Below are positions 4,346 to 45,843 of a stretch of DNA of 64,000 nt, one piece after another. The DNA comes from a virus: IMG/VR virus record IMGVR_UViG_3300037010_001749, positions 21,896 through 85,895 of that record; one strand, 5' to 3'. Numbering within the stretch: the stretch's first letter is position 1; every line of letters begins with the position of its first letter. The position numbers were made by a program, and so were the translations under genes. The notes beneath the pieces are model-generated. The model ran no database searches. It saw nothing but the letters and a program-made list of their open reading frames with translations, and was not told where the DNA came from.

Positions 4346-4780
4346 TTACTTGTTGTCCTTGATCGTGTAGTGGTGCGGCTGCTTGCCCTTGTGCAGCTCG
4401 AGGATGGCCGCCGCCTGGCTGTTCAACTCGGCAAGTTCAAAAGAGACGCCGTTCATCGGACGGTCGTCAACCATGTTCCCCTGCAGCATAGAGTCGCGCA
4501 GCACCATGAGGCTTGCGATGGCCTTGTCCAGGTGGTGCATGCCGCTGTCAGGGTCGATGTCTTGGCCTTCCCACCATGGGACGATGTGCCGGGCGACCGT
4601 AGCGTCGAAGTAGACCGAGGCTCGAACGCCGGCGCCGCGGTAGTTGTGCCGGCCGTACTTCGCAGCGCCTTCGAGCATGGCCAGGCCTATGCGCCACAGC
4701 ACACGCATAGGCAGGGTAGAGAAGGGCACCTTGGCAGTGCCAATGGCGTCCTTCGGGTTGGTCTCTTTACGCTCGCCCAT
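4346..4780 (-). CDS. dATP/dGTP diphosphohydrolase-like protein (DUF5664 type)
   Basis: 144 residues with the hallmark run of the phage dGTP-diphosphohydrolase N-terminal family (MazZ relatives): ETNPKDAIG, LAMLEGAAKYGRHNYR, GVRASVYFDA, RHIVPWWEG, DPDSGMHHLDKAIASL, DDRP. Characterised members remove pyrophosphate from dGTP or dATP and shape the phage nucleotide pool; MazZ takes part in 2-aminoadenine synthesis. Here it abuts the polymerase gene with no gap and overlaps the upstream gene by 14 nt. I saw no PurZ-like gene in the window, so a role in base replacement is not supported by this window alone. Confidence 0.8.
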   Translation of the reverse strand: MGERKETNPKDAIGTAKVPFSTLPMRVLWRIGLAMLEGAAKYGRHNYRGAGVRASVYFDATVARHIVPWWEGQDIDPDSGMHHLDKAIASLMVLRDSMLQGNMVDDRPMNGVSFELAELNSQAAAILELHKGKQPHHYTIKDNK

Positions 4781-5792
4781 TCTCAGCCTTGTTGATCTCG
4801 AATTTGAGTGTGTTGACGATCCGGCTTTCCACTCGGCGACTCAGCACCGCAGGCAGTATCCGACGTGGGTCGTAGACCCGTTTGGCAAAGTCTTCCAGGC
4901 GCATGTGAGTCGGCACCAGGATCTCCACGAGCATCGAGACTTTGAGGCGATCCACGTACTGCCAGTCCTCCATAACGCCCAAGGCCTCCTTGAACGCCGC
5001 CACCCGCGCCTTGCGCTTGAAGGCCTCGACTGACATGCGCTCCACCGCTTGCACAAGCTCCTTGCATAGCTGACCGTCAGACAAGATACGCAGCGTCTGC
5101 AGCGCGTAGTCCACACCTTCGAACTCTGGAAACTTCTCCAGGTTCTCGTGCAGCACGGAGCGCAGCCTGGCGATGAGGTCGTAGTGGCAAGTCATGGAGA
5201 TGATGCCCCGGGGCATCTCCAGCATGCCTGCCACAGCGTTGGAGCAGTCAGCGTCCCAGGCCTCGGCGTACACCGAAGGGAAGCCGGAGACGACACCGAT
5301 CTGGCCCCACTGAGTCTCAGCGTAGTAGTTGCTTGCGTCTTCGACGAAACCTATGATGCCGGCACAGGAGGTGCGGAATACCCGGGCCACTTCCATGGCA
5401 AACATGGCGCCAGTTGCGTGCGTGCCTACCGGCCAGTCCTCGGGTAGCGGAAACGCCATCTTGCGCTCGCCAACCGGGACCTTCTGAAAGACCAGGGCCA
5501 TGCCGCGGTGGCCATCCAATGTGCTGAACTCTTCCGGAGCAAAGCGAAGAAGCTCCAGGCCTCGACGGTAGAAGGCGTGGAGTTCCTCAGCGTTAAGGGG
5601 CAACGGATAGTCCAGGTACTCGTGCAGAGGTACGCCCAGAAGCATCTGCGGGGCCTTCAGCGGTGGGGCCTGCCAGGGCAGGTCCGTGATGCTGATAGGC
5701 CCCTGCAACAAGTCCGCTGGGCTATAGCCAGCGTTGCTGAAGGAGGTGGCTATGGCCTCCGACAGTACGCGGGTTCTATTGAGCCTGGCCAT
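4767..5792 (-). CDS. Unidentified 341-aa protein in nucleotide/replication cluster
   Basis: A soluble, mixed alpha/beta-looking protein of 341 residues without a motif I can name. It overlaps the MazG-like gene by 17 nt upstream and the diphosphohydrolase by 14 nt downstream, so the four genes from polymerase to MazG are translationally linked. The context suggests nucleotide metabolism or replication. It does not show the GDEGKG signature expected of adenylosuccinate-synthetase-like PurZ. Confidence 0.75.
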   Translation of the reverse strand: MARLNRTRVLSEAIATSFSNAGYSPADLLQGPISITDLPWQAPPLKAPQMLLGVPLHEYLDYPLPLNAEELHAFYRRGLELLRFAPEEFSTLDGHRGMALVFQKVPVGERKMAFPLPEDWPVGTHATGAMFAMEVARVFRTSCAGIIGFVEDASNYYAETQWGQIGVVSGFPSVYAEAWDADCSNAVAGMLEMPRGIISMTCHYDLIARLRSVLHENLEKFPEFEGVDYALQTLRILSDGQLCKELVQAVERMSVEAFKRKARVAAFKEALGVMEDWQYVDRLKVSMLVEILVPTHMRLEDFAKRVYDPRRILPAVLSRRVESRIVNTLKFEINKAENGRA

Positions 5793-21822: not shown

Positions 21823-22115
21823 GCTTCGAACCCCGCCTGGAAGCCGAAGTAGGCGATGTCCACGTGGCCACGGCTGCAGAAGACCATGTCGAAGTCGCAG
21901 GGATTGACGAGGCCTTCGATGTACCCCTGCGCCTTCCGGTCTTCGCGCCAGGCTTTGGCCACTTCAGCCCGCGCCTTCTTCAGTGCAGCCAAGGCCTCGG
22001 TGTAGTTGTCGCCAGCCGGCACAGACACCAGTGCCACATGGAAGGGCCAGGCGTGCACCCAGTCGGGCGGGAACCTGTAGTGGAGCACCACCGTCCAGGG
22101 CTTGCTGGCCCTCAC
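21819..22115 (-). CDS. Hypothetical protein, 98 aa
   Basis: GTG 22113-22115 overlaps the previous stop. Begins MRASKPWTVVLHYRFPPDW, contains a helical Lys/Ala segment and FCSRGHVDIAYFGFQAGF. Unknown function. Confidence 0.65.
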   Translation of the reverse strand: MRASKPWTVVLHYRFPPDWVHAWPFHVALVSVPAGDNYTEALAALKKARAEVAKAWREDRKAQGYIEGLVNPCDFDMVFCSRGHVDIAYFGFQAGFEA

Positions 22116-22700: not shown

Positions 22701-22714
22701 GCTATTGTCTCTAG

Positions 22715-22733
22715 ATTAGCTCGAACGTTATGC
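22715..22733 (+). repeat. attC right half (array left end)
   Basis: ttagctcgaacgttatgc is identical to the L'-R' half of the complete site at 24967-25036. The left half is absent. Confidence 0.75.
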
Positions 22734-22849
22734 GCCTGTCTCGGAATGGGTGAGCTTCACCGCATGCCAAGTGCCTAAAACCTCGTCTGCCGCCGTCAGC
22801 CAGTCTTGCGGCAGCGGGTGCGCTTCAGCAGGGCCAGCGCAGCGGCACC
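22734..22849 (-). pseudogene. Gene remnant at the 3' end of cassette 1
   Basis: A minus-strand frame reading LPQDWLTAADEVLGTWHAVK and on to THSETGA stops at TAA inside the half-attC (22730s). It is open upstream but has no start codon before its convincing part, so it looks like the 3' remnant of a lost gene. No other gene is seen in this stretch. Confidence 0.35.
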
Positions 22850-23563
22850 CTACTCCACCGGGTTCACTGCGCTTCGCGCAATCTCAATGAGCAAGTCTCG
22901 GAACTCAGGCGGTGTACCGTTGCGGATCGCAGTCTTATCCTTGCCGCCCACCATCGCCATCATTCCAATGCGCCGCGCTTTCGCGTATCCGGGCAACTCC
23001 ACGGCGCGCGGGTGTAGCCGCTGCGGTGTCTTGCCCCAGCGCAGTTCGGGCAGCAGGCGCTTTTGCACGCCAGCCACAAGCAGCCATGTTCCTTTGCCGG
23101 CAAGGTGCCCGTAGTGGCCTTGGTACACGCAGCACGTCCACAAGCCTGGCGCGGCCTCAACCCACCCACCTTTGCGCGGCGGCTTCTTCAGCCTGAAGTA
23201 CGCCCACGCATGCGAGTCCATCGGGTGTTCAAGCACGCCACCGTTCAGACGCAGCGCCGCCAGTGCGGTAGCAAAACACCCATCGTCGGCGCCCAGCTTG
23301 TACTGGTGCGGCTTGCGCGTGCTGCCGTGCCAGAACCTGCCCCAGCGCTGGCAGGGCAGGTGCGCCACTACCGGGTGCGGGCCTGCATAGGTACGGGCAT
23401 CGCGGGCTTGGTCCCACGGGTCAACGCCCGGCACGCCTACATAGCAGCCCTTCGGCTCAACGTAGAGGGCCGCCACCGTACGGAAGCTCTCCACCTGGCG
23501 CATAACCCCTCGCACAAGCTGAGAGCCAACGGCGGGTGTAATGGGTGCTTCAGGTTTGGTCAT
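22850..23563 (-). CDS. Cassette 1: conserved phage protein, 237 aa
   Basis: The core YVEPKGCYVGVPGVDPWDQA, YAGPHPVVAHLPCQRWGR, GGVLEHPMDSHAWAYF and QGHYGHLAGKGTWLL matches a phage hypothetical family (annotated as unknown, about 200 aa). The first ~20 residues (MTKPEAPITPAVGSQLVRGV) are translated from attC1 itself. ATG 23561-23563 overlaps the stop of the cassette 2 HTH gene (ATGA) inside the attC, so translation is coupled across the recombination site. A second in-frame ATG is at 23501-23503. Confidence 0.78.
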   Translation of the reverse strand: MTKPEAPITPAVGSQLVRGVMRQVESFRTVAALYVEPKGCYVGVPGVDPWDQARDARTYAGPHPVVAHLPCQRWGRFWHGSTRKPHQYKLGADDGCFATALAALRLNGGVLEHPMDSHAWAYFRLKKPPRKGGWVEAAPGLWTCCVYQGHYGHLAGKGTWLLVAGVQKRLLPELRWGKTPQRLHPRAVELPGYAKARRIGMMAMVGGKDKTAIRNGTPPEFRDLLIEIARSAVNPVE

Positions 23564-23596
23564 GCCGTTGGTTCCAGCTTTGCTTGGTCATTAGGC
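23500..23596 (+). repeat. attC1
   Basis: R'' gcataac 23500-23506; R' attaggc 23590-23596 (first core base A rather than G). Arms GAGCCAACGGC / GCCGTTGG. Nearly identical to attC5. On the minus strand it encodes the start of the cassette 1 gene and the stop of the cassette 2 gene. Confidence 0.8.
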
Positions 23597-23784
23597 GGCT
23601 TGCGCAACTCGAACATCACAACCCGCCGCAGACCCAGGCGCCGCAGGTAGTCGGCGCTCGGGTTCACCTTCTCGCCATCACGCAGCCGCGACAGGTAGCC
23701 GCAGTCAATCTCGGTCACGCGGGCCACGGCGCGCAGGCTGCCGTGCTGCGAGACGAGTTGGTCAATGCGCTCTGCCAGCGTCAT
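23560..23784 (-). CDS. Cassette 2: small HTH regulator, 74 aa
   Basis: LAERIDQLVSQHGSLRAVAR followed by VTEIDCGYLSRLRDGEKVNP has the Cro/XRE-like HTH arrangement. ATG 23782-23784 overlaps the stop of the second cassette 2 gene. The last ~10 residues (ending KLEPTA) are encoded by attC1. It might regulate nearby genes; no operator is recognised. Confidence 0.7.
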   Translation of the reverse strand: MTLAERIDQLVSQHGSLRAVARVTEIDCGYLSRLRDGEKVNPSADYLRRLGLRRVVMFELRKPPNDQAKLEPTA

Positions 23785-24125
23785 GACTGATACCCGGCCA
23801 GCGCGTTGGCTAGCGCGGCATCCGCTTCGCCGAGAAAATCGTCCGGCACAATGAACGACACCCACGCGGGAGCGTTCGGCGTTGCTGGATGCCTCGCGTA
23901 TTGCAAGAGCGTCGCAAGCAGCACGGCACAGCGCTTCGGCGCAGCCCGCACCAGCACTGCAAACCGCTCCAGGTGCTCCTGCGTCACGCCGTGGCAGCCT
24001 TCGCTGTACACGCACGAACCGCTGCCGTGGTTCAGCACGTTCACCATTCCAGCAGCCTCCACCAGCGGGCCTAACCCCTCTGTCGAGCCGAGTGCCAACG
24101 GCTGGCTGGTTTTGGTAGTGTTCAT
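23781..24125 (-). CDS. Cassette 2: hypothetical protein, up to 114 aa
   Basis: The native-looking start is MVNVLNHGSGSCVYSEGCHG after GGAGG, but an in-frame start ATG 24123-24125 lies inside attC2, nine bases after AAGGAG, adding MNTTKTSQPLALGSTEGLGP. Core (VTQEHLERFAVLVRAAPKRC, FIVPDDFLGEADAALANAL) is unknown. The same attC-encoded leader recurs in cassette 8. Confidence 0.7.
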   Translation of the reverse strand: MNTTKTSQPLALGSTEGLGPLVEAAGMVNVLNHGSGSCVYSEGCHGVTQEHLERFAVLVRAAPKRCAVLLATLLQYARHPATPNAPAWVSFIVPDDFLGEADAALANALAGYQS

Positions 24126-24173
24126 CGTTGCTTCTCCTTGGCCGTTGTCACCGGCTCAACTCCAACGTTAGGC
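24069..24173 (+). repeat. attC2
   Basis: R'' gcctaac 24069-24075, R' gttaggc 24167-24173. The spacer contains, on the minus strand, AAGGAG (24134-24139) and ATG (24123-24125). Almost identical to attC8. Confidence 0.85.
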
Positions 24174-24174
24174 C

Positions 24175-24468
24175 TCACACCAGCCACGATGCAGCGGCAG
24201 CTTGGCGAGAGGCTGTGTCGCGTGCCTTGATGCCCGCCAACAAGTCGGCGGCCAGCAGCGGGTATTCGGCGGCGCACGATTCTACGTATGCGCGCAGGGC
24301 CGCCGCAGCGTGCTTATCATGCGTCAGGTCCAGCACAAAGTAAACGCAGCCGCAGTGCTTGCCGCCCGGCGCGCTACTGCCGTCCGTTCGCGTCACGTTG
24401 AATCTGCTGTACAGCCCACGATTCCTGTCACAGGGCATTGGCTCGCCGCACAGTTCACACTTGCTCAT
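24175..24468 (-). CDS. Cassette 3: Cys-rich hypothetical protein, 97 aa
   Basis: MSKCELCGEPMPCDRNRG plus GGKHCGCVYF offer a zinc site; the rest is helical and Ala-rich. ATG 24466-24468 has AGGAAAAGC up front. The frame is also open upstream into attC3 (GTG 24547-24549). Function unknown. Confidence 0.72.
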   Translation of the reverse strand: MSKCELCGEPMPCDRNRGLYSRFNVTRTDGSSAPGGKHCGCVYFVLDLTHDKHAAAALRAYVESCAAEYPLLAADLLAGIKARDTASRQAAAASWLV

Positions 24469-24491
24469 GCTTTTCCTCGCTCCGGCACCAG

Positions 24492-24592
24492 GCCGAACCA
24501 TTCGCACAAGCTGCGCCCCAACGGCGGGGCACAGCAACTCGGTAGGCACCGCCTGCGCGGCCGTTGGTGCCAGCTTTCCTCAATCGTTAGCC
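24492..24592 (+). repeat. attC3
   Basis: R'' gccgaac 24492-24498, R' gttagcc 24586-24592; arms CCCCAACGGC / GCCGTTGG. L'' gcacaagctg against L' cagctttcc. Confidence 0.75.
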
Positions 24593-24605
24593 AGCGCCAA
24601 AACCA

Positions 24606-24926
24606 TCACGCCGGCTCGTAGGTGGCTGCGAAGATGTCCGGTTTGCATGGATAGTGCTCGCCGGCCACGCCGCGAATGATCCAGTCGCCTGGGCTAGCGA
24701 CATGCTGGCCTTCAAGCGTCGGAACCATGATGTTGTTGTTGTGCCATTGCGCCAGCTCGCGCCCGATGGCGTGCTGTCCCTCGTTGATCCAGAGAATCAG
24801 CGCATAGCTACTTCCGTCGTTGCGGAACTGGCGTGCTTCAATCACGATAGGTTTCTTCCTGAAGCGCGTTGTCTGTTCGGTTGTTGCCGCGTCCAGCTCA
24901 TGGCCGGCGCTGAGAAATGTTTGCAT
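24606..24926 (-). CDS. Cassette 4: conserved phage protein, 106 aa
   Basis: TTRFRKKPIVIEARQF at the start and PGDWIIRGVAGEHYPCKPDI near the end identify a widespread phage protein family of unknown function, at its usual length. AGAAGGAACCGTC precedes ATG 24924-24926, so this gene has its own ribosome binding site outside the attC. Confidence 0.82.
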   Translation of the reverse strand: MQTFLSAGHELDAATTEQTTRFRKKPIVIEARQFRNDGSSYALILWINEGQHAIGRELAQWHNNNIMVPTLEGQHVASPGDWIIRGVAGEHYPCKPDIFAATYEPA

Positions 24927-24966
24927 GACGGTTCCTTCTGTGTTGTGCCAGCATGGGTCGGGCGCT

Positions 24967-25036
24967 GGCTAACCCCTCGCTCAAGCGGATTTGCCACGGA
25001 GTACCATGTCAAACGCGCTTAGCTCGAACGTTATGC
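24967..25036 (+). repeat. attC4
   Basis: R'' ggctaac 24967-24973, R' gttatgc 25030-25036, only 70 bp. Left GCTCAAGCG pairs with right CGCTTAGC leaving an unpaired C (24982) on the left arm, fixing plus as the top strand. Near-copy of attC11. Confidence 0.88.
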
Positions 25037-25542
25037 GCCTTGAGGCACGCCACCATTTGCCGCGCCGACTGTCTCGCGTCCATCAACGGGTGGTGCGCCG
25101 GTAGTTCGTCCGGCAAGCGCTCGGTCAGTTCCAGCGCGTTGCCGCCCAGCGCCAGGATCACGCTTGCCAAGTCGTGCAGCGGGTACGGGCCTTGCCACTC
25201 GCGCTCGGCGTGGTTCAGCTTCACGCACGCGCTCAGAAAGTTGGCTTCCACCGGCCAAGCGCAGTCAGCCACCAGCACCGCGCCCTGGTCGGCCCAGCTT
25301 CGCCACTCATGCCAAAAGTGGTTCCGCAGGTGCTGCTTCGTTGGGCTTGTCACCGGCAGCGCCGGCACATGCTCGCCCACCCACAGCCGGCTTTCGGCGG
25401 TGCCGGTGCAGTCGGCGGGGTCGCAAGCAATGCAGCCTTCGTCCAGCCGCTCGCCTTCTCGGTTCACCACTACCCAGGCCACTGCAAAGCCCTCGCCATG
25501 CAGGCCAATGCTTTCCACGTCAAACACCATAAATTTGTCCAT
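25009..25542 (-). CDS. Cassette 5: DEDDh exonuclease-like protein, 177 aa
   Basis: MDKFMVFDVESIGLHGEGFA gives ExoI (D8/E10), VLVADCAWPVEANFL fits ExoII, and HHPLMDARQSARQ the ExoIII His/Asp. It may be a 3'-5' exonuclease of the RNase T/DnaQ fold used in host DNA or RNA turnover. ATG 25540-25542 follows GAGAGG by six bases; the frame is also open up to ATG 25633-25635 inside attC5. The C-terminal NVRAKRV is encoded by attC4. Confidence 0.82.
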   Translation of the reverse strand: MDKFMVFDVESIGLHGEGFAVAWVVVNREGERLDEGCIACDPADCTGTAESRLWVGEHVPALPVTSPTKQHLRNHFWHEWRSWADQGAVLVADCAWPVEANFLSACVKLNHAEREWQGPYPLHDLASVILALGGNALELTERLPDELPAHHPLMDARQSARQMVACLKAHNVRAKRV

Positions 25543-25571
25543 CACCATCCTCTCGTTTCTCGCTGCAGGCG

Positions 25572-25668
25572 CCGTAACACCTCGCACAAGCTGAGAGCCA
25601 ACGGCGGGTGTAGTGGGTGCTTCAGGTTTGGTCATGCCGTTGGCTCCAGCTTTGCTCGATCGTTAGGC
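25572..25668 (+). repeat. attC5
   Basis: R'' ccgtaac 25572-25578, R' gttaggc 25662-25668. Left arm has an unpaired C (25587) and A (25594) against the right arm, corresponding to the extrahelical G and T of a canonical attC bottom strand. Best single site for orientation. Confidence 0.88.
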
Positions 25669-25968
25669 GCTTACCGCAGGGCCAGCAGGCAGCGGCATCC
25701 AGTGCGTCACACGTCTCACCAGCGCTGGCGGCAGCGGCCAGTTGTGCTGGTCCACCTCCCACCGAGGGCCCTCACCAGTAAGCCGGAACTTCGTGATGTG
25801 CGCGTGTCCAGGAGTCAGCCGGTCAAAGACCCCGCGGCGCCACACCAGCACGGTGGCGTTGTGACTGGGCAAGCGCTCGCCAGTCGGCACCCACGCGCAT
25901 AACCCCTCACTGCAACCGAGCCCCAACGGCTGGCCCGTGCTGCTGTCATCGGTAGTTTCAGTGGTCAT
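25663..25968 (-). CDS. Cassette 6: DUF551-like protein using an attC-encoded start, 101 aa
   Basis: WVPTGERLP, ATVLVWRRG and the terminal VTHWMPLP are hallmarks of DUF551, a small phage/prophage family that normally begins right at the W(I/V) residues. Here the Trp follows attC6 directly and the only well-placed start is ATG 25966-25968 inside attC6, seven bases after AGAGGA; it adds MTTETTDDSSTGQPLGLGCS and a few more residues. The stop TAA is formed by the R' core of attC5. It is the clearest case of a gene depending on its attC for initiation. Confidence 0.8.
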   Translation of the reverse strand: MTTETTDDSSTGQPLGLGCSEGLCAWVPTGERLPSHNATVLVWRRGVFDRLTPGHAHITKFRLTGEGPRWEVDQHNWPLPPALVRRVTHWMPLPAGPAVSA

Positions 25969-26017
25969 CGTGTTTCCTCTCGTGCCGTTGTGTCCGGCTC
26001 ACCTCGAACGTTAGGGC
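25897..26017 (+). repeat. attC6
   Basis: R'' gcataac 25897-25903, R' gttagggc 26010-26017. Minus strand spacer carries AGAGGA (25975-25980) and ATG (25966-25968). The longest site, about 121 bp. Confidence 0.8.
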
Positions 26018-26184
26018 GCAGGGCCACGCTTGCGGTTCTCGCGGCGCTGCAACTTCGCTTCCAGCGCCCTGACCTCTGGCACGTACTCCGGGCGCACATG
26101 CACTGTCACCGCAGTGCGCCCGGATTCCTTGTGGCGCTGCCGCTCGTCGGCCTTGCGCTCTGCTGCTGTTTTCGCTGGGCTCAT
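26011..26184 (-). CDS. Cassette 7: small basic protein, 57 aa
   Basis: MSPAKTAAERKADERQRHKE then VRPEYVPEVRALEAKLQRRE; highly basic, helical, likely nucleic-acid-binding. ATG 26182-26184 overlaps the upstream gene (ATGA). Stop TAA is the R' core of attC6. Confidence 0.68.
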   Translation of the reverse strand: MSPAKTAAERKADERQRHKESGRTAVTVHVRPEYVPEVRALEAKLQRRENRKRGPAP

Positions 26185-26474
26185 GCCAGCGTGGCGCCGG
26201 CCGCTAGGTAGTGCGCCAGCTCGCTGTCCGGGATCGAAACGAACCTGTAGCCCATGCGGTGCGCAGTGGAGCCATCAGGAATGGTCACAACGCTGAACGG
26301 CTCACCCTTCATTTCGGCAATCTGCTTTGCGTAGGCACGCACTGGCTCGGCCTGCGAGTGGATCGGTTCCACTTGCAGGGCTGCGCGCTGGCGCTTCAGT
26401 GTCTTGGTCATCTCAGCTTGCATCTCTTGCTCCTTCTGCTGCACTGTAGCCGCAGTGGCTACAGTATCGCTCAT
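26181..26474 (-). CDS. Cassette 7: hypothetical protein, 97 aa
   Basis: Helical N-terminus (VQQKEQEMQAEMTKTLKRQR) then YAKQIAEMKGEPFSVVTIPD and SIPDSELAHYLAAG. ATG 26472-26474 lies outside attC7. Forms a coupled pair with the 57-aa gene. Not recognised. Confidence 0.68.
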   Translation of the reverse strand: MSDTVATAATVQQKEQEMQAEMTKTLKRQRAALQVEPIHSQAEPVRAYAKQIAEMKGEPFSVVTIPDGSTAHRMGYRFVSIPDSELAHYLAAGATLA

Positions 26475-26505
26475 CGTGACACGTCACGCAAGCATTCTCG
26501 CGTGC

Positions 26506-26612
26506 GCCCTAACCCCTCGTTGCAACCGAGCCCCAACAGGCTGCGGTCAGTTGTGGCCTTTCGGCCTGCTTATGCACGGCCTGTTGGGGCCGGCTGAACT
26601 CGAACGTTAGGC
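26506..26612 (+). repeat. attC7
   Basis: R'' gccctaac 26506-26513, R' gttaggc 26606-26612; R'' complements the R' of attC6. Contains an internal AGGCCGAAAGGCC-type stem. Near-copy of attC9. Confidence 0.82.
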
Positions 26613-26911
26613 CCTTCAATGCCGCGAGCAATCTTGCTGGCGGCATTCCGCGCGTTCACCGTCACGCCGTCAGCGTGCGTCTCGCCCCAGCGGCGGGCAA
26701 TGGCGGCGCAGCGTGCGCGCTCGGCGGCCACGGCCTTGTCAATGCGCCACTGCACATGCGCCGGGCTTGACCAATGGCCGCACTCGGCGGGGTCATCGTT
26801 TGTGCCGCAGATTGTCATGGTCAGGTATTGGCCCTCGCGCTGCGGTGGCAGCGGGCCTAACCCCTCTGTCGAGCCGAGTGCCAACGGCTGGCTGGTTTTG
26901 GTAGTGTTCAT
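26570..26911 (-). CDS. Cassette 8: hypothetical protein with attC-encoded ends, 113 aa
   Basis: ATG 26909-26911 in attC8, nine bases after AAGGAG, encodes MNTTKTSQPLALGSTEGLGP before the core MTICGTNDDPAECGHWSSP and VQWRIDKAVAAERARCAAIA. The internal ATG lacks a good Shine-Dalgarno. The last residues (NVRVQPAPTGRA) come from attC7. So both tails of the protein are attC sequence. The core resembles small phage proteins with an RARCA(A/V)IAR helix. Confidence 0.72.
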   Translation of the reverse strand: MNTTKTSQPLALGSTEGLGPLPPQREGQYLTMTICGTNDDPAECGHWSSPAHVQWRIDKAVAAERARCAAIARRWGETHADGVTVNARNAASKIARGIEGPNVRVQPAPTGRA

Positions 26912-26959
26912 CGTTGCTTCTCCTTGGCCGTTGTCACCGGCTCACATCGATCGTTCGGT
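26855..26959 (+). repeat. attC8
   Basis: R'' gcctaac 26855-26861, R' gttcggt 26953-26959. Same spacer, AAGGAG (26920-26925) and ATG (26909-26911) on the minus strand as attC2, but a different last ~20 bp. Confidence 0.82.
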
Positions 26960-26966
26960 GTGTTGC

Positions 26967-27197
26967 TCACCGCGAGCAACCCAAATGCTTGCCGTCGCTC
27001 GTCATGCGTGGCGTGAGTCCGCCGGCCGAAGTGCGCAGATACTGGCACCCGGTCAGCGCGTCGGTGCTGGGCACCAAGCCGCTGCGGGCGCCCCACGCGC
27101 CGGGGTCCGTGTCATCGCGCCCAATGGGCAGCAGGCCCACAACCAGCATCATGGCCACGCCAATCAGCAGGTACTTCCCGCACCAGCGGGCGAACAT
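26967..27197 (-). CDS. Cassette 9: DUF6440-like membrane-anchored protein, 76 aa
   Basis: An N-terminal hydrophobic helix (YLLIGVAMMLVVGLLPI) is followed by GARSGLVPSTDALTGCQYL and SAGGLTPRMTSDGKHLGC, a small phage family I know as DUF6440-like. ATG 27195-27197 with GAAGCAAAA upstream; the frame continues into attC9. Probably inner-membrane anchored or exported. Role unknown. Confidence 0.72.
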   Translation of the reverse strand: MFARWCGKYLLIGVAMMLVVGLLPIGRDDTDPGAWGARSGLVPSTDALTGCQYLRTSAGGLTPRMTSDGKHLGCSR

Positions 27198-27218
27198 TTT
27201 TGCTTCTATCAACGACAC

Positions 27219-27324
27219 GCCTAACCCCTCGTTGCAACCGAGCCCCAACAGGCTGCGGTCAGTTGTGGCCTTTCGGCCTGCTTATGCACGGCCTGTTGGG
27301 GCCGGCTGAACTCGAACGTTCGGC
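27219..27324 (+). repeat. attC9
   Basis: R'' gcctaac 27219-27225, R' gttcggc 27318-27324. Shares nearly its whole sequence with attC7. Confidence 0.82.
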
Positions 27325-27325
27325 A

Positions 27326-27628
27326 TCAATACCGGCTTTCGAGTTTCGCCAGCGCCGCTTTGATGATCGACTGCATCACCTCATCGGTCATGTGCTTGGC
27401 CATTGCGTCCTTGATGCCGGTTTCCAGCAGCGGCGCGTAGGTGGCCAGCACTTCCTTTTCGATCAGTTCGCGCACGTACCGCTTGACGACATCATCGAAT
27501 GGGTTGTTGTAGCTCTTGGACAGTTCAGCGATGCTGCGCTGAACGGCACCCTTCACTACTTCACCGATCTGGCTGTCCATCACAGTCTTGGCGATGAACT
27601 CGTTAATTTGCTGCGGGGTCAGTTCCAT
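27326..27628 (-). CDS. Cassette 10: hypothetical helical protein, 100 aa
   Basis: MELTPQQINEFIAKTVMDSQ start; entirely helical and charged, ending AALAKLESRY. AGAAGGAAACGAC before ATG 27626-27628 is its own ribosome binding site. No family recognised, but the composition is that of a real protein. Confidence 0.75.
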   Translation of the reverse strand: MELTPQQINEFIAKTVMDSQIGEVVKGAVQRSIAELSKSYNNPFDDVVKRYVRELIEKEVLATYAPLLETGIKDAMAKHMTDEVMQSIIKAALAKLESRY

Positions 27629-27651
27629 GTCGTTTCCTTCTGTGCGTTGAT

Positions 27652-27756
27652 GCCGAACTGGCAGTTCAAGCAGAGCCCCAACGGCGGCCTGCTTTTGTGG
27701 TTAAAAACTCCGGCGTCCGTGGCGCCGTTGGTACCTGCTTAACCTAAACGTCAGCC
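27652..27756 (+). repeat. attC10
   Basis: R'' gccgaac 27652-27658 complements the R' of attC9; R' is gtcagcc 27750-27756, departing from GTT. Arms CCCCAACGGCG / CGCCGTTGG. Confidence 0.72.
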
Positions 27757-27780
27757 GGCACCAATACCCTCGGTGCCGGC
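27754..27780. other. Hairpin at start of cassette 11
   Basis: Perfect 9-bp inverted repeat GCCGGCACC / GGTGCCGGC with a 9-nt loop, just 3' of the Acb2-like gene and overlapping the R' of attC10. Could stabilise the mRNA end. Confidence 0.4.
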
Positions 27781-27792
27781 ATACTCGTGTTG

Positions 27793-28071
27793 TCAGAACG
27801 TGGTGGGCTGCGCAATGCCGCGAATCAACTTCATGAAGCCCACTTGCAGGTCAGTGGCTCCCATGCTGACCCACCGCTGGTCAAGGTCCAGTGACAGCGG
27901 CCTGCCATCGGCCACAGGCGTATCGGTGCGCGTGATGTCAGGGTGTTGACGCAGTTTCGCCACAAAAGCGCCGCACTGCTCGGCCAGCGCCTTGCCCTCG
28001 TTCATCAGCGCTACTTCAGCACCGCTCAGTTGACGGTAGCCCGTCACTTTCGGTTGAATCATCGTTTCCAT
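27793..28071 (-). CDS. Cassette 11: Acb2-like anti-CBASS cyclic-nucleotide sponge, 92 aa
   Basis: KVTGYRQLSGAEVALMNEGK, then RPLSLDLDQRWVSMGATDLQ and GFMKLIRGIAQPTTF match my recollection of the Acb2 / T4 Vs.4 family (Acb2/Tad1 hairpin domain), including length and the conserved DxRW...G.TdlQ.GFM.L.R.IA.P ending. Acb2 proteins form hexamers that sequester cyclic di- and trinucleotides and so block CBASS (and some Thoeris) defence. AAGGAACCAC precedes ATG 28069-28071. It is the only cassette gene for which I can name an anti-defence function. Confidence 0.8.
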   Translation of the reverse strand: METMIQPKVTGYRQLSGAEVALMNEGKALAEQCGAFVAKLRQHPDITRTDTPVADGRPLSLDLDQRWVSMGATDLQVGFMKLIRGIAQPTTF

Positions 28072-28111
28072 GTGGTTCCTTAAGTTGCATGCCAGCGTTG
28101 GTGCGGGTGCT

Positions 28112-28181
28112 GGCTAACCCATCGCTCAAGCGGATTTGCCACGGAGTACCAAGTCAAACGCGCTTAGCTTGAACGTTCGGT
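28112..28181 (+). repeat. attC11
   Basis: R'' ggctaac 28112-28118 (complements the gtcagcc side of attC10), R' gttcggt 28175-28181; 70 bp, near-copy of attC4 including the unpaired C on the left arm. Confidence 0.85.
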
Positions 28182-28415
28182 CCGTTCATTCGCCACCGCC
28201 ACTGCATCAAGCACACCCGGCTTCATCGCCAGTTCCAGCAGGCTGCCCATCATGCGCTTGCCGTGCGCCCGGTTGGCATCCAGTAGATCGATGTACTTCT
28301 TGCGATACTGGTGAAGTTCTTCGTTTTCCTCGCGCAGCCGCTCTAGTTCGTGATGCATGTCCAGCACGTCGGCGGCCATCTGCACAGCCAGGGGCACTTT
28401 GTAGTCTCGCCTCAT
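28164..28415 (-). CDS. Cassette 12: coiled-coil protein, 83 aa
   Basis: MRRDYKVPLAVQMAADVLDM then HHELERLREENEELHQYRKK is a strong coiled coil; similar short proteins occur in many phages. ATG 28413-28415 after GGAGAAACGAG. The last residues (ERSS) and stop TAA lie in attC11. Confidence 0.75.
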   Translation of the reverse strand: MRRDYKVPLAVQMAADVLDMHHELERLREENEELHQYRKKYIDLLDANRAHGKRMMGSLLELAMKPGVLDAVAVANERTERSS

Positions 28416-28434
28416 CTCGTTTCTCCACCAACGG

Positions 28435-28478
28435 GCCTAACCCGTCGCTCAAGTTGAGAGCCAACGGCGCCAGCAGGC
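28435..28478 (+). repeat. attC left half (array right end)
   Basis: R'' gcctaac 28435-28441, L'' and the ccaacggc arm are present, ending about 28478 against the phage gene's stop. The right half is absent; it would match the right half of attC10. Confidence 0.72.
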
Positions 28479-44236: not shown

Positions 44237-45280
44237 GGTATCGATCCTTAAGACTAGGGTAAATGCGGCCCGATTATTCGGGCCGGTAATCCGAAGGATT
44301 ACCCTAATGGGCGGCCATTAGGGAAACCCTCGTGAGGGTTTCGGTTTCACAAGCCGCGGGTTAGGCCCTAAACCTTACCGCGGCTAGAAACCATGAGCGC
44401 TAAGACAATGCGCATGCCTCAAAAAGTTAGCCGGGTTCTCAATTTTGACCCGTGGCTAACTTCGCTGCTATCAAAACCCGTTACAGGGTGCCTGTCTGCA
44501 CTATGCATATACATCCGCGCCTTTCGGCTGCTAATCGGGGTCATTCTTTCGCTTTTCGAATGGTTTGCACGGCGGCTATGTTCGGGGTTTTCTTTCGCAT
44601 CCTTTCCCTCGTTTGTTTCTCTTGGCACAAGGTGGCCTCACGTCCTATCTCACCGCCTAGGTGGGCGCCGGGCCCGCTATCCCGGCCGCGCCTCACGGCG
44701 CGGATTTCTGGCCTAACCCTGCCAGTCTGGTGCGCAAACCCCTAGGGGCTCACCCTAGAGATAGCGCGCTTGAGTTGTTAAAGAGCGCTGCCGGAGCCTA
44801 CCGCCGGACTGCGCCGCGGGCTTACCGCCCGGGGCTTGCATCTATCGTTTCCTCTAGTGCATGGCTAGTAATGTATCCCTAAGCGCTAAGGAACCAATCA
44901 GGACAAACCCTAATAGGGTTTACCCCACATATAACTTCGGTGCGCGACGCATGCACGCGTTAAATAGATTCGGAATTAGCGAAACGCAATAGGGGTTTAC
45001 CCTAATGTTCTGCATTCGCTGTTTTTTCAGACCCCCATAGGGGTTAGGTACCAAAAGGCAAAAAAGGCCATAAACGGCCGTCTGATGCTTTCCAGCGGCA
45101 AAGGGTTAACCCCTAGTCTAGCTGGCCTGGTTTTTGACGGCATGTTTGTTGCCTGTTACAATTACACGCCCATTAGTAACACACTGATACGCACGCATCG
45201 GCTATTCGGCCCATGCCAGCAAGCACGCACATCCTTAGCCCTAAGGGCCATGCGGGTATCACTGGGCCATGCCCAGCGCT
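44237..45280. promoter_or_regulatory. Divergent non-coding region rich in CCCTA/TAGGG palindromes
   Basis: Separates leftward and rightward genes; no convincing gene seen. Hairpins include GGCCCGA/TCGGGCC (44267-44284), CCCTAATGG/CCATTAGGG (about 44300-44322), GCCGCGG/CCGCGGC (about 44355-44385), and AAACCCTA-AT-AGGGTTT (about 44904-44920). Further CCCTA or TAGGG half-sites occur near 44740, 44985, 45035 and 45108, and repeat copies at 44245, 44876 and 45232. Likely contains early and late promoters and operators. Confidence 0.5.
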
Positions 45281-45668
45281 CGACCCGGGGCCATGACCCG
45301 GGCCCATGCCCAGCGCTCGACCCGGGGCCATGGCAAGGGCTCGACCCGGGCCCATGGCAAGGGCTCGACCCGGGCCCATGGCAAGGGCTCTACCCGGGGC
45401 CATGGCAAGGGCTCTACCCGGGGCCATGACCCGGGCCCATGCCCAGCGCTCGACCCGGGGCCATGGCAAGGGCTCGACCCGGGGCCATGGCAAGGGCTCG
45501 ACCCGGGCCCATGGCAAGGGCTCGACCCGGGGCCATGACCCGGGGCCATGCCCAGCGCTCGACCCGGGGCCATGGCAAGGGCTCGACCCGGGCCCATGGC
45601 AAGGGCTCGACCCGGGGCCATGACCCGGGGCCATGCCCAGCGCTCGACCCGGGGCCATGGCAAGGGCT
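45281..45668. repeat. Tandem repeat block of 24- and 37-bp units
   Basis: Ten short units (24 bp, CGACCCGGGGCCATGGCAAG plus ggct, with variants) and four long units (37 bp, in which CATGACCCGGG and CATGCCCAGCGCT replace the short tail), order L-SSSS-L-SSS-L-SS-L-S, with partial long units at both edges. Every unit holds CCCGGG and a CATGG or GGGCCC palindrome. It sits 170 bp before the rightward operon that begins with HTH and terminase genes. Plausible roles are replication origin iterons, terminase recognition or an enhancer. Confidence 0.9.
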
Positions 45669-45843
45669 CGACCCGGGGCCATGACCCGGGCCCATGGTGG
45701 CCGCCGAATCCGCGCCCCAGGGAGTGTCAGGGCCCCAGGTACACTTTGCGCCATGGGCCTGGTCCTGGGCCACGGCCCTGGGCCCCTCCCCCTTCGCGAA
45801 ATTTTTGGTATCTTTTCGGCCAGTTTTGCAAGACAATACCCCC

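Follow-up and report, generated by a model that had tools for sequence, protein, structure and literature searches.

Within the 64,000-nucleotide window analysed here (positions 21,896 to 85,895 of IMG/VR virus record IMGVR_UViG_3300037010_001749), direct reading of the sequence between 22716 and 28470 distinguishes 11 complete attC sites, plus a half-site at each end, around 12 cassettes (Table 1). The phage is large and tailed, and the array is set in its leftward early operon, enclosed by approximately 44 kb of leftward genes, with the terminase module to one side and the DNA polymerase/primase module to the other, both belonging to a single phage. The cassette genes are all on the minus strand, and the attC sites all on the plus strand.

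Table 1. Half-sites, attC sites and cassette genes of the array. Positions are those of the window; each complete attC site is listed from the start of its R'' box.
Feature	Position	Strand	Basis and remarks
Left half-site	22716..22733	+	L'-R' remnant, TTAGCTCGAAC GTTATGC; attI-proximal array end; direct reading
Cassette 1 gene, 217-237 aa	22850..23503	-	phrog_12600, E 1e-60
attC site 1	23500..23596	+	R' mutated to ATTAGGC; near-identical to site 5; missed by covariance model
Cassette 2 second gene, 74 aa, HTH-type regulator	23560..23784	-	phrog_8, E 0.0013
Cassette 2 gene, 114 aa	23781..24125	-	RBS and start codon within attC site 2
attC site 2	24069..24173	+	41.8 bits, E 4e-8 on +; 18.2 bits on -
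Cassette 3 gene, 97 aa	24175..24468	-	phrog_9572, E 2e-20
attC site 3	24492..24592	+	Direct reading and alignment; missed by covariance model
Cassette 4 gene, 106 aa	24606..24926	-	phrog_419, E 1e-29
attC site 4	24967..25036	+	Covariance model, E 5e-4
Cassette 5 gene, 177 aa	25009..25542	-	89% to attC-bounded cassette of viral contig L009
attC site 5	25572..25668	+	Covariance model, E 0.002
Cassette 6 gene, DUF551	25663..25968	-	PF04448, E 1e-7; longest ORF begins within attC site 6
attC site 6	25897..26016	+	Covariance model, E 0.018
Cassette 7 gene a, 57 aa, weak regulator match	26011..26184	-	phrog_536, E 6e-4
Cassette 7 gene b, 80 aa	26181..26423	-	Gene calling
attC site 7	26507..26612	+	Covariance model, E 3e-5
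Cassette 8 gene, 113 aa	26570..26911	-	Start within attC site 8; N-terminus common to cassette 2
attC site 8	26855..26959	+	Covariance model, E 3e-5; near-identical to site 2
Cassette 9 gene, 76 aa	26967..27197	-	phrog_14094, E 4e-12; 88% to attC-bounded cassette of viral contig L038
attC site 9	27219..27324	+	Covariance model, E 0.004; near-identical to site 7
Cassette 10 gene, 100 aa	27326..27628	-	Gene calling
attC site 10	27652..27756	+	R' = GTCAGCC; alignment and fold; missed by covariance model
Cassette 11 gene, 92 aa, putative Acb2/Tad1-type cyclic-nucleotide sponge (anti-CBASS)	27793..28071	-	PF24729, E 2.7e-12
attC site 11	28112..28181	+	Covariance model, E 0.003
Cassette 12 gene, 83 aa	28164..28415	-	Weak relative in array of viral contig L017
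Right half-site	28435..28470	+	R''-L'', GCCTAAC ... CTCAAGTTGAGAGCCAACGGC; direct reading

The inverted R''/R' and L''/L' boxes of these sites fit known attC profiles. A covariance model built solely from the attC sites of 14 plasmid resistance cassettes, and hence independent of the window, recovered eight of the 11 above background, all on the plus strand (E 4e-8 to 0.018), with no significant score outside the array, where the top match had an E value of 0.25. The three that it missed are clear homologues of other sites by alignment. Hence the count of complete sites and half-sites made in an earlier, sequence-only reading is borne out, as is its claim that the left R' of each cassette complements the right R'': at the four variable bases, the pairing was perfect in seven of 12 cassettes, compared with one of 11 sites (permutation p=0.0015), and imperfect in five cassettes. 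This matching by cassette, rather than by site, agrees with the prediction of cassette shuffling, and identifies the R'-to-R' recombination unit. The bottom strands also fold as expected of attC. They form hairpins with paired R boxes and an L-box bulge, like the aadA1 control, the bulged G of which has a counterpart in site 1; the best folds were those of the sites at 24069 (z -4.5) and 26507 (z -4.2), but the short sites 4 (z -1.7) and 11 (z -0.8) folded weakly. The left half-site and site 4 have 22 nt in common (TTAGCTCGAACGTTATGCGCCT). An arrangement of the two half-sites as a single attC, with the rest of the phage genome in its loop, was considered and discarded, the L boxes being too generic to support it. 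Rfam and tRNA scans returned no matches, and comparison of the array DNA with plasmids gave only short matches, all to the cassette 4 gene.

Neither an integron integrase nor any other tyrosine recombinase was detected in the whole 85,895-bp record (PF00589, TIGR02249), and no attI was seen, meaning this is not a complete integron. Rather, with 11 sites in 4.7 kb and no intI in the record, it is a CALIN, defined as at least two attC sites close together with no intI nearby, and the earlier description of a true attC array of this type carried by a phage stands. The array may also be partly decayed, given the lack of intI, the two mutated R' cores, the imperfect core pairing in five cassettes and the half-sites at both ends. 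Both intI and attI are present in the related phages G007, G015 and G020.

The cassette 1 gene resembles one of Pseudomonas phage Persinger, and is 66% identical to a cassette of viral contig L007, while the cassette 4 gene has DNA relatives among myco- and gordoniaphages. The product of cassette 5 looks, by eye only, like a DEDD exonuclease, with no profile or PDB match to one. The cassette 11 protein scored 47.1 bits against PF24729, relative to a curated cut-off of 27, and aligned to the p26 chains in PDB 8h2j/8ixz with almost all of its length covered (E 4e-9). It is therefore a predicted member of the Acb2/Tad1 hairpin family and, like phage Acb2 (p26), a likely anti-CBASS protein, but apparently one carried as a mobile attC cassette. 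Another viral array also gave a candidate Acb2, which was discounted, as the match was weak (E 1e-4) and not recovered with the window protein as query. Viral cassette cargo elsewhere includes methyltransferases. Most cassette genes are without known function, and we infer a counter-defence role for the cassettes.

In integrons generally, a cassette gene usually reads toward its own attC, an orientation that is common without being a strict requirement of the family. In the window and in other viral arrays, the genes instead face the opposite way, which the sequence-only reading had overlooked; homology backs the reversed gene calls. Using our own gene caller, and viral contigs that are mostly metagenomic fragments, the ratio of reversed to same-facing cassette genes was 330:34 on virus contigs, compared with 33:115 in integrons of Burkholderiales that carry this attC family (p=2e-52). 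Relatives of the integron integrase are carried by 84 IMG/VR contigs, and a test independent of attC hits found the gene adjacent to intI to be co-directional with it in 68 of 70 testable viral contigs, against 11 of 38 bacterial ones. These viral integrases form virus-only clades and keep their catalytic residues; IntI1 is approximately 53% identical to one phage IntI. Judged from sequence, the inverted layout is the mark of a wide class of integrons encoded by phages, in many of which an integrase is also present, and its recurrence across dozens of phages suggests that phages run a dedicated version of the integron. The array described here is very probably an integrase-less form of this phage-specific, inverted-cassette type.

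Exchange of these cassettes is evident among phages. Near-identical phages differ by exact cassette insertions or deletions at the AAC/GTT crossover, and otherwise unrelated phages have cassettes in common, with edges at core sites. For cassettes 5 and 9, it is the gene that is common to another phage, and not the attC body. The window phage itself had no close relatives in IMG/VR by its array-flanking protein or DNA polymerase, and the polymerase query did not link it to any of 37 array contigs; its top GenBank relatives, Vibrio phages, are about 30% identical or less.

These observations, with the mirror geometry of the layout and the continuity of the operon, suggest how the system could operate. 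Each phage cassette consists of a small gene and an attC, with the gene flipped relative to the attC when compared with bacterial cassettes. All the genes read toward the attI/intI end, and so would be expressed with the leftward early operon of the phage. Each cassette supplies its own start region, beside or within an attC hairpin, and the gene typically ends with a stop codon in the GTTA that belongs to the R' core. In related phages, the integrase is the co-directional gene that follows the array, whereas the window phage has lost it or never had it, and its array is probably served in trans by an integrase from either a host integron or a prophage in the same cell. Recombination would occur at G|TT on the bottom strand of the folded attC, such that cassettes would be gained and lost as units. 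With a pool enriched in putative counter-defence genes, the array could provide phages with a shuffling anti-immunity module.

Phage CALINs and integrons, including those of Tetrasphaera phage TJE1, Shewanella phage M16-3 and Vibrio phages, have been described, and phage attC sites recombine with IntI1 (Qi et al. 2023, PMC9892861). As in the window, the arrays of attC sites lie within phage genomes, in some cases with no integrase, and methyltransferase cargo is common to them and the inverted phage integrons. However, TJE1 and M16-3, when tested here, were classical, with genes sharing the orientation of their attC sites, whereas those of the window are all reversed; the inverted phage arrays are also longer, and the viral integrases fall in clades of their own. 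The GenBank virus Rctr41k has an IntI-like gene, and was left out of the count because its attC sites are weak and in the classical orientation. The model derived from cassettes of class 1 mobile integrons recognises the phage attC structure, but those integrons combine a divergent intI, an outward Pc promoter and resistance cargo, whereas in the phage type a co-directional intI ends a phage operon.

It is very unlikely that a phage captured, by chance, a piece of a host chromosomal integron with ordinary bacterial cassettes, as in Vibrio anguillarum phages. Some published phage CALINs are host-derived (PMC9892861), and the same attC family is abundant in Burkholderiales chromosomes, where the sedentary integrons of Rubrivivax and its relatives also have the same intI-attI-attC geometry. 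Yet bacterial cassettes of this family have the opposite gene orientation, and the integrases fall in separate clades. In the sample compared, none of 200 viral cassette proteins matched any of 99 bacterial cassette proteins, whereas 46 matched another viral array, and several window cassette genes fall in phage protein families. A false join during assembly, or a bacterial sequence filed among viruses by mistake, is extremely unlikely; although IMG/VR records derive from metagenomes, the array lies inside the long leftward gene block of a single phage, and the same layout occurs in other, independent phages that carry genes for terminase, portal and capsid proteins.

The sites might instead be attC-derived hairpins that no longer recombine in the window phage, and act only in RNA or translation, through RBS presentation, processing or attenuation. 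This is unlikely, even though site 2 and site 8 (perhaps site 6 as well) contain ribosome binding sites and start codons, and the two mutated R' cores, the lack of intI and the half-sites at both ends fit a loss of recombination: core complementarity persists within cassettes, cassettes 5 and 9 occur elsewhere with edges at core sites, and related phages show exact and recent cassette indels. Alternatively, it could be the attC polarity that was flipped and not the gene, with phage integrases using the top strand, and the mobile unit comprising a gene and its left-hand site. The phage layout is an exact mirror of the bacterial one, with the stop codon in the core box, and R'/R'' pairing does not discriminate between a flipped attC and a flipped gene. 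This reading is nevertheless very improbable, as all 89 attC sites near a viral intI are in the canonical orientation toward intI and attI, and the site travelling with the gene is the right-hand one (0.99 vs 0.66 for L027/L042; 0.97 vs 0.61 for the duplicate in L021).

Integrons are gene-capture devices of bacteria, the cassettes of which spread antibiotic resistance between them. The phage cases published to date look like incidental captures. Phages probably own a long-established integron branch, with virus-only integrases, and a separate pool of inverted cassettes that is wired into operons, carries anti-immunity cargo and is exchanged site-specifically. If so, phages would exchange cassettes through site-specific recombination in parallel with the bacterial exchange of resistance genes, gaining a modular, recombinable store of accessory genes, plausibly directed against defences such as CBASS and restriction. 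The origin of the fixed gene orientation in cassettes becomes testable, as does the role of phages as a source or sink of bacterial cassettes, and the inverted layout predicts that the newest cassettes should be promoter-distal, opposite to bacterial integrons. The same inverted layout is seen in a Burkholderiales contig that resembles a prophage end.

The genes and attC sites of ordinary integron cassettes share an orientation; in the window, every cassette gene lies on the minus strand and the attC sites on the plus strand. The eleven complete attC sites and two half-sites claimed by the sequence-only reading were borne out by sequence reading, alignment and an independent covariance model, built from 14 plasmid-integron attC sites chosen to avoid circularity. 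This model found 8 of the 11 complete sites, all on the plus strand (best 41.8 bits, E 4e-8), with a single array site also scoring on the minus strand at a far lower 18.2 bits, and a best match outside the array of just E 0.25. Folded as single-stranded DNA, the better sites paired their R boxes and bulged at the L box, like the aadA1 control, with the bulged G visible in site 1; two short sites folded weakly. The proposed complementarity of each cassette's left R' and right R'' also stood: it was perfect at the four variable bases in 7 of 12 cassettes, compared with 1 of 11 sites (permutation p 0.0015), and in other viral arrays in 85% of cassettes, compared with 33% of sites (p < 2e-4). The R' cores of sites 1 (ATTAGGC) and 10 (GTCAGCC) were mutated, and sites 2 and 8 give two unrelated genes the same ribosome binding site and start codon, along with the coding sequence of the N-terminus (MNTTKTSQPLALGSTEGLGP). 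Both ends of the array are half-sites, as if it had been transplanted, or its outer attC halves deleted.

The array is embedded in ~44 kb of small leftward genes; DNA polymerase A, primase and helicase are encoded on its left, and the terminase and structural genes lie on its right. In agreement with the earlier impression that no integrase was visible, no tyrosine recombinase was found in the entire 85,895 bp IMG/VR record, of which the window covers bases 21,896-85,895. Scanning IMG/VR for the window's attC family identified 37 contigs, in which the plasmid-derived model detected large attC arrays. Three encoded an integron integrase (TIGR02249, E 1e-120 to 1e-130): G007, with terminase, portal, capsid, tail fibre, primase and its own phage integrase; G015, with portal and tail genes; and G020, with a serine integrase, ParB and primase. 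They share an attI-like sequence (GCGAATTGAAG|TTAGGC in G015). Searching with these integrases identified relatives in 84 viral contigs, of which 80 were kept, with catalytic residues retained in 77-79 of 79 viral integrases. All 89 attC sites near viral intI point away from it, the canonical integron geometry. Two label changes sufficed for a tree that combined 46 viral integrases with 49 bacterial ones, against a shuffled mean of ~32, and virus-only clades contained 20 (SH-aLRT 98) and 16 (99) members.

Reversal of cassette genes extended across these viruses. Genes opposed their attC sites at 214:21 in the 37-contig set (window included, one gene caller), and at 116 to 13 near viral intI, versus 33:115 in bacterial genomes with the same attC pattern, mostly Burkholderiales. 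The combined viral-bacterial test gave p 2e-52, although cassettes of the same locus are non-independent and a few contigs are present in both viral sets; the per-locus tally, in which reversed genes were the majority at 66 of 68 loci, is therefore the safer figure. Two viral contigs (L032 and L036) lacked the reversal, having mixed counts, and may be miscalls or genuine exceptions. Independently of attC, the first gene upstream of intI was co-directional with it at 68 of 70 viral loci, versus 11 of 38 bacterial loci (p 2e-14). Bacterial stop codons lie at R'' (median +2) with starts ~46 nt past R', whereas viral stops lie in R' (median -5) with starts ~20-23 nt from R''; the viral geometry is the mirror of the bacterial. 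Genes beyond the attI-distal end were co-directional with the cassettes at 69:6 and 62:10 in viruses, against 8:16 in bacteria. One Burkholderiales genome has the inverted layout, its seven attC sites and seven genes lying on opposite strands, adjoining a phage integrase and chromosomal genes, which is consistent with a prophage end; the integrase of this array shares 82% identity with one from a virus.

Phage CALINs, and phage attC recombining with IntI1, are already known (PMC9892861). Genes and attC share an orientation in Tetrasphaera phage TJE1 and Shewanella phage M16-3, the two published cases tested, unlike the window and other viral arrays. Literature searches, preprints and subscription papers aside, turned up no earlier description of cassettes inverted in this way or of integrase clades specific to viruses.

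These cassettes appear to move. Two phages with no other relationship to the window phage carry cassettes that match window cassettes 5 and 9 at 88% identity, the similarity both starting and stopping at the core sites; as the shared genes are flanked by differing attC bodies, attC and gene are separable. Near-identical phage pairs differ by exact indels with junctions at AAC, which is complementary to the G|TT crossover: ~1.8 kb adjoining intI in L260 relative to L257, between flanks 99.6-100% identical; ~541 and ~337 bp (L222 and L223); ~552 and ~443 bp (L225 and L226); and 304 bp (L249 and L251). One phage array contains the same cassette twice. In those cases where an attC accompanies its gene, it is the right-hand site, therefore the mobile unit is a classical cassette with its gene flipped inside.

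Coordinates of the window array and related features
Feature	Position	Observation
attC array	window 22,716-28,470	sites on plus strand
Left half-site	window 22716-22733	L'-R'
Right half-site	window 28435-28470	R''-L''
Cassette 5	window 25036-25572; viral contig L009 8171-8706	gene common, attC bodies on both sides unlike
Cassette 9	window 26959-27219; viral contig L038 3718-3978	gene common, attC bodies on both sides unlike
attC pair	window 24069-24173 and 26855-26959	near-identical, beside different genes
attC pair	window 26507-26612 and 27219-27324	near-identical, beside different genes
24-bp tandem repeat units	window 45267-45683	GACCCGGGGCCATGGCAAGGGCTC; between early and late regions
IntI-like gene	L361 (Virus Rctr41k, KX853513) 4680-5678	published record, annotated xerD; weak attC-like sites downstream

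The window array would be mobilised in trans, and its cassettes expressed from an upstream phage promoter, with the array probably benefiting the phage. None of 200 viral cassette proteins matched any of 99 bacterial ones, although absence of sharing is unproven because this bacterial sample was restricted to Pseudomonadota; 46 of the 200 matched another viral array. Several window cassette genes matched phage protein families, those of cassettes 1 and 4 resembling Pseudomonas phage and mycobacteriophage genes respectively. Among 114 viral cassette proteins, DNA methyltransferases were the commonest recognised families, alongside PAPS reductase, HNH, NinX and queuine tRNA-ribosyltransferase. 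This cargo, together with the Acb2/Tad1-type product of window cassette 11 (PF24729, E 2.7e-12; PDB p26 chains, E 4e-9), suggests that the viral cassette pool is a counter-defence store.
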